Shown here: positions 7,504 through 8,051 of the stretch, one piece after another | How the letters are laid out: each line of letters starts with the position of its first letter | Numbering within the stretch: the first letter of the stretch is position 1 | NCBI GenBank assembly: GCA_000991245.1 | Contig: LBRD01000006.1 | Coordinates: 1-39,339, forward strand | DNA length: 39,339 nucleotides | Direction: 5' to 3' | From: Parcubacteria group bacterium GW2011_GWC1_36_108 | GTDB lineage: Bacteria > Patescibacteriota > Minisyncoccia > Moranbacterales > GWC2-37-73 | Made by a program: the position numbers and the translations under genes | Notes under the pieces: generated by a model | What the model was told of the DNA's origin: nothing | The model's database searches: none | Seen by the model: the letters and a program-made list of their open reading frames with translations, nothing else

Positions 7504-7660
7504 GACATAGGAGAAATTTTTTAATATACATATATATTAGCCTTTATTTAAGCTTTTTGCAAGACCAGTCACTCGTGAGTGACCGGTCAACCATCAAAAA
7601 AATTCATCGATTAGATGAATTTTTTGGCTGTGCCACGTTATGAGCGCAGCGAATTTTACG

Positions 7661-7801
7661 TGGACGGTCCGGCTAGATTCGAACTAGCGCCCAGTGCTAT
7701 CAAACAGAAAGTGTTGATCAACAAGATTCCCCTCAAAAATAACAAATCAATCACTTTCCACGTCACCCCCGATAGCCGCTCTACCGCTAAGCTACGGACC
7801 A
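7661..7801 (-). tRNA. tRNA-like gene interrupted in the anticodon loop by a long insertion; 3' CCA encoded; identity unresolved
   Basis: Minus strand: TGGTCCG(acceptor)TA GCTT AGCGGTA GAGC(D arm) G GCTAT [71 nt] ATAGC ACTGGGC GCTAG TTCGAAT CTAGC(T arm) CGGACCG T CCA. All four canonical stems form; only the anticodon loop is abnormal. Confidence 0.6.
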
Positions 7802-7863
7802 TGTTAAATATTACACGCTTATTTTAAAAATATTTCAAAAGAAAAGTATTATTCCATATTCCT

Positions 7864-8032
7864 CCCTCTCCTTAGATAAGGAGAGGGCTGGGGTGAGAAA
7901 TGAAAAAGAATAATTCCATATTACTTCCTCCCCTTGGATAAGGGGAGGATTGAGGTGGGGTTGAGCTAGACATCACTCAAACCTCTCTGTCCCGATTCCG
8001 TATCGCGACATCTCTCCTTATCAAAGGAGAGA
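7864..8032. repeat. Cluster of three related hairpins
   Basis: CCCTCTCCTT-AGAT-AAGGAGAGGG (7864-7887), CCTCCCCTT-GGAT-AAGGGGAGG (7927-7948), TCTCTCCTT-ATCA-AAGGAGAGA (8011-8032). Confidence 0.85.
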
Positions 8033-8051
8033 ATAATATTGAAGGAAATAT

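Follow-up and report, generated by a model that had tools for sequence, protein, structure and literature searches.

On the minus strand of the analysed window (the whole stretch of 39,339 nucleotides) positions 7661-7801 probably hold the gene of a stand-alone non-coding RNA, in which a tRNA fold would serve as scaffold for a conserved bulged hairpin with the motif GGGUGAY; from the comparison of sequences we give this reading roughly two chances in three. An RNA of this kind was found only in one family of small-genome bacteria. It is most likely a tRNA-shaped non-coding RNA without earlier record, rather than a translating tRNA with an intron; no description of such an RNA was found in the open-licence literature.

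The RNA was missed by ARAGORN with default settings and by the gathering scan of the whole window; ARAGORN in intron mode detected it and called it a tRNA with an intron. When the region was searched alone with cmscan, the tRNA family RF00005 matched 7664-7801 of the minus strand with 36.1 bits (cut-off 29), 71 nt filling the place of the 7-nt anticodon loop, and this family was the sole credible Rfam match for the RNA. A preliminary description had named all the canonical tRNA stems on the minus strand and an insertion of 71 nt with its own helix. The stems are indeed present at the positions it gave, and the inserted helix was predicted to fold as described and is supported by covariation in 11 sequences. 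The parts of the locus are the following.

7661..7801, minus strand: probable tRNA-shaped non-coding RNA gene, whole (RF00005, ARAGORN intron mode, orthologues)
7661-7663, minus strand: encoded CCA
7664, minus strand: N73, a U
7665..7671, minus strand: acceptor stem, 3' strand CGGACCG (RF00005 match, covariation)
7795..7801, minus strand: acceptor stem, 5' strand UGGUCCG (covarying, 4 of 7 pairs changed on both sides)
7672..7688, minus strand: T arm with the loop UUCGAAU (RF00005 match, covariation helix 7)
7778..7792, minus strand: D arm with G18G19 (RF00005 match, covariation test; absent in the orthologue G015)
7771..7776, minus strand: basal stem of the arm (anticodon stem), 5' strand GCUAUC (covariation helix 3)
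7696..7701, minus strand: basal stem of the arm, 3' strand GAUAGC (covariation helix 3)
7762..7768, minus strand: bulge GGGUGAC, conserved more strongly than any other part of the arm (mean pairwise identity 97%)
7745..7758, minus strand: inserted helix, 5' strand GAAAGUG-A-UUGAUU (fold, covariation helices 4-6)
7707..7719, minus strand: inserted helix, 3' strand (fold, covariation)
7808..7838, minus strand: promoter-like boxes TTGAAATA ... TGTAATAT, with their end 6 nt upstream of the RNA (same boxes and distance in other orthologues)
7626..7660, minus strand: hairpin repeat of about 35 nt between CCA and terminator (second copy after tRNA-Leu(CAA) in the same genome)
7596..7626, minus strand: predicted intrinsic terminator hairpin and T run, about 35 nt after the RNA here, behind the small repeat

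The covariation test was carried out on 11 aligned sequences with 36 pairs, using 500 shuffles and partner-sliding controls; an alignment (A4) that included the G008 and G012 copies was poor and was left out of model building. In the 11 sequences 98.7% of the cells were paired, 16 of the 36 pairs were changed on both sides and none of the 500 shuffles matched the observed pairing, while sliding the partners by one column left a pairing of about 45%. Covariation supports the acceptor, anticodon, insert and T helices; in the D stem just one pair is variable. Since this covariation is strong in the 11 orthologues, the tRNA-like RNA is far more than a chance resemblance, despite the weak single-sequence z-score (-0.8) of the inserted helix in the window. 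Comparison shows that the orthologues have preserved the predicted acceptor, D and T arms, mostly through paired changes.

The anticodon loop is not the open loop that had been described: the anticodon stem extends over 6-8 bp and is followed by a bulge of 6-7 nt on the 5' side, GGGUGAY, and then by a long helix which carries UUGRYU/RRYCAA and has a variable tip. The mean pairwise identity was 77% for the tRNA shell and 69% for the arm, compared with about 41% for the flanking DNA (a figure from forced alignment) and 97% for the bulge, which in G008 is reduced to GGGU. The letters of the D-loop and the T-loop are also kept in most members. Since the shell is as conserved as the arm and these loop letters are retained, some tRNA-like processing or aminoacylation is possible.

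The same insertion recurs in related genomes, where the preliminary description had thought it worth looking for: the RNA was found in 13 further genomes of the family, with 11 full-length and 2 reduced copies, so that the shell is intact in 12 of the 14 copies; CCA is encoded in four. All five other members of the genus that were examined (G001-G005) carry it, as do the family members G010, G011, G014, G016 and G018, and a covariance model run over 132 genomes of the order added G008 and the reduced copy of G015, the remaining high matches being ordinary tRNAs caught via the shell. The G012 copy was caught through its 3' half, with a weak arm score. With a model of the arm only (R2), 4 of 387 sampled genomes of the class gave a match, all of the same family. 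Among the family genomes searched, G006, G007, G009, G013 and G017 gave no convincing match. As for the tRNA ancestor, several tRNAs of the genome resemble the shell to about the same degree.

In the reduced copy of G015 a short AU-rich stretch replaces the D arm and C56 of the T-loop is changed, while the arm is kept. In G012 the 5' acceptor strand, the D arm and the lower stem are gone, so that the lower stem cannot form and the arm is left with the 3' half; a promoter-like sequence, TGAAATA...TAATAAT, stands directly before AAGGGUGAUACGG, next to the bulge. The acceptor, D and T arms of the cloverleaf are thus complete in the window RNA and incomplete in both these copies. The losses, together with the lack of the RNA in some genera, are what one would expect of a decaying, functionless tRNA pseudogene. 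However, paired changes occur in all helices, the bulge is 97% conserved and the promoter boxes and the terminator are kept, which makes a pseudogene very improbable as an account of the family; a recent disruption of a tRNA, one of three options in the preliminary description, is excluded by the conservation through the genus and into the family. The G012 copy itself may be in decay or may result from an assembly fault; if the latter does not apply, the arm outlives the shell. It is mainly because G015 and G012 have shed shell parts and kept most of the arm that the arm is regarded as the working part, and because the shell is overall as conserved as the arm, this is something we infer.

The sequence around the RNA is consistent with a separate transcription unit. 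A box TGAAATA, or a close variant of it, and a box TGTARTA(T) precede the RNA at a constant distance, with 5-7 nt between the end of the second box and the RNA. In most orthologues a terminator hairpin follows the RNA within about 10 nt; in the window genome (G000) and in G004 a hairpin repeat of about 35 nt separates RNA and terminator. Judged from sequence, a putative promoter, a putative terminator and a conserved structure, as expected for a stand-alone small RNA gene, are thus all present. The repeat, CGTAAAATTCGCTGCGCTCATAACGTGG..., lies at 7626-7660 of the window and again at G000:C6:139476-139511 after tRNA-Leu(CAA), and it is possibly a small element which settles at tRNA ends.

A cytidylyltransferase gene lies upstream of the RNA in genus g1, G012 and G011. 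The position beside serS, noted earlier for the window, is shared in part: serS is downstream of the RNA in g1, G008 and G010 and 2 kb away in G012, and in genus g7 it is found elsewhere, not beside the RNA. Two types of serS, about 45% identical, occur within family f1, even inside one genus (g2), and the serS tree was unusable as a species tree. Between the cytidylyltransferase gene and the RNA, the window carries at 7850-8040 a cluster of inverted repeats (GGAGAG/CTCTCC, GGGGAGG), and G002, G003 and G004 have similar sequence in the corresponding position. At the G012 locus (L056) the interval that separates the cytidylyltransferase gene from the reduced RNA contains another tRNA-like stretch, CGGGATGTGATCGC...CATCCCG. 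Positions 1-294 of the window hold, on the minus strand, the 5' portion of a 16S rRNA gene that is truncated at the contig end.

The main alternative to an unspliced RNA is a tRNA interrupted by a short bacterial intron (about 59-68 nt) of a new type, which some unknown nuclease would excise, after which RtcB or a different ligase would join the ends. The intact shell of most copies, the encoded CCA of four of them and the ARAGORN call of a tRNA with an intron agree with this, as does an RtcB family gene in 15 of the 19 family genomes. Among the splice registers that leave a 7-nt loop, however, none has U33 in more than 7 of the 12 sequences, and the anticodon differs among the copies: most have GUU in this loop, G001 and G010 have GUC, and G008 has UAU, so that the Asn identity guessed earlier from GUU is not supported. 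No 7-nt loop with U33 and a conserved anticodon, direct or spliced, as expected of a decoding tRNA, was found in these sequences. The first acceptor pair also varies among the orthologues, and N73 is U in g1, G008, G010 and G012, and A or G in g7. The consensus fold contains one 5' bulge and no second 3-nt bulge, and, judged by eye, no BHB motif is seen. RtcB does not co-occur with the RNA among the 19 family genomes: it was not found in G001, G015 and G018, which carry the RNA, and is present in G006, G007, G009 and G013, in which no tRNA-shaped RNA was found. The genome has 39 other tRNA matches, and with tRNA-Phe all 20 amino acids are served, so that the tRNA-shaped RNA is not needed for an otherwise unserved one; an intact Asn-GUU tRNA, a second copy of the guessed isoacceptor of the kind that had been considered, exists elsewhere. 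The short intron also fits poorly with the orthologues that have lost the D arm or the 5' half. Taken together, it is an unlikely explanation, and among the three options of the preliminary description the extended anticodon arm is the best supported.

A minimal or degraded group I intron is less probable still, and we regard it as scarcely credible. Such introns do reach tRNA anticodon loops here, since the same genome has a genuine one: tRNA-Phe(GAA) at G000:C2:37478-37732 (locus L053) contains a group I intron of 254 nt (RF00028, 73.5 bits), the sole group I match of the genome above the cut-off. On the other hand, the insert of the tRNA-shaped RNA measures 59-68 nt across the copies, its conserved parts fold as one bulged hairpin and not as a P3-P9 core, and the group I models, earlier named as a check, gave no match in the window with E up to 10 or in the orthologues with E up to 5. 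The tRNA-Phe intron also disposes of a missing tRNA-Phe, which had been entertained and was rejected. Just downstream of the tRNA-Phe intron locus lies an ORF with an initial helix-turn-helix-like stretch.

The stand-alone RNA would be the product of a small gene, of about 141 nt plus terminator, in one bacterial family. From the promoter position, transcription probably begins with the first base of the acceptor stem or one adjacent to it, which would leave little or no 5' leader to remove. The RNA would stay unspliced and would not decode codons. By analogy with the laboratory 'tRNA scaffold', the tRNA fold may protect the ends and offer a handle to tRNA-binding enzymes, and the long arm would be the working part, whose bulge may contact a protein or another RNA. 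As to its origin, we tentatively suggest a natural tRNA scaffold: the lineage may have recruited a tRNA gene in which a functional hairpin with the GGGUGAY bulge replaced the anticodon loop, the tRNA fold would stabilise or deliver this hairpin, and later lineages would have shed tRNA parts and kept most of the arm. Excision of the insert through a new bacterial tRNA-splicing route is a more extreme proposal than the natural scaffold, and less likely. A weak lead to a partner is that GGGUGAU could pair with the 16S 3' end AUCACCU, a pairing which is not kept in G008.

Several known identities were considered and rejected. The RNA is not tmRNA: RF00023 has no match at its position, and a separate tmRNA lies at C4:10086-10491. 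SRP RNA was also discarded, as RF00169 has no match in the window or at the orthologue loci; the same model detected nothing in any of the 13 family genomes scanned, with or without the tRNA-shaped RNA, and the SRP RNA of the family may be very divergent. The T-box motif is AGGGUGGNACCGCG, and its UGG pairs with the CCA of tRNA. The sequence AGGGUGAUACGG of the RNA resembles this motif, but UGG is replaced by UGA in nearly all copies and there is no CCCU partner, so the likeness was judged a coincidence (cmscan being the sole model used). Coding in the arm was rejected because its length varies by non-multiples of three.

If the reading is correct, tRNA-shaped non-coding RNAs gain a new family and the laboratory scaffold a natural counterpart, and the copies, at different stages of shell loss, offer a test case for the conversion of tRNA genes into non-coding RNAs. 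The RNA can also mislead annotation, since default ARAGORN skips it and the intron mode assigns the orthologues to Asn, Asp, Thr, Lys or Glu.

With the tRNA family (RF00005) the RNA shares the covarying acceptor, D and T stems and, in most members, the GG of the D-loop and the UUC of the T-loop; it differs in having an arm of about 80 nt and no 7-nt anticodon loop, constant anticodon, U33 or constant N73. Bacterial group I introns occur in tRNA anticodon loops (PMC8450103), which is the same insertion site, but here the insert has 59-68 nt, there is no group I core and splicing is only putative. The pseudo-tRNA tRNAOther of Bacillus cereus, for which a role outside translation has been proposed, is likewise tRNA-like (PMC3399842); it has a Trp anticodon, whereas the RNA described here has the long arm and no anticodon loop. 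YrlA, a bacterial Y RNA, combines a tRNA-like module with a long stem and joins Rsr to PNPase (PMC8394870), and the present RNA resembles a permuted YrlA, with D, T and acceptor arms and a long stem where the anticodon arm would be. A Y-RNA-like tether linking two proteins in this way is nevertheless quite improbable, as the RNA ends at the acceptor and not within the long stem, a TROVE/Ro (Rsr) protein was found in 0 of 19 family genomes and Rfam gave no YrlA match. The laboratory 'tRNA scaffold' for RNA expression, in which a structured RNA is placed at the anticodon stem-loop site upon the acceptor, T and D arms (PMC3753655), is equal in design to the RNA described here, which differs from it in that it is a natural gene, is conserved, and has promoter-like boxes and a terminator of its own.
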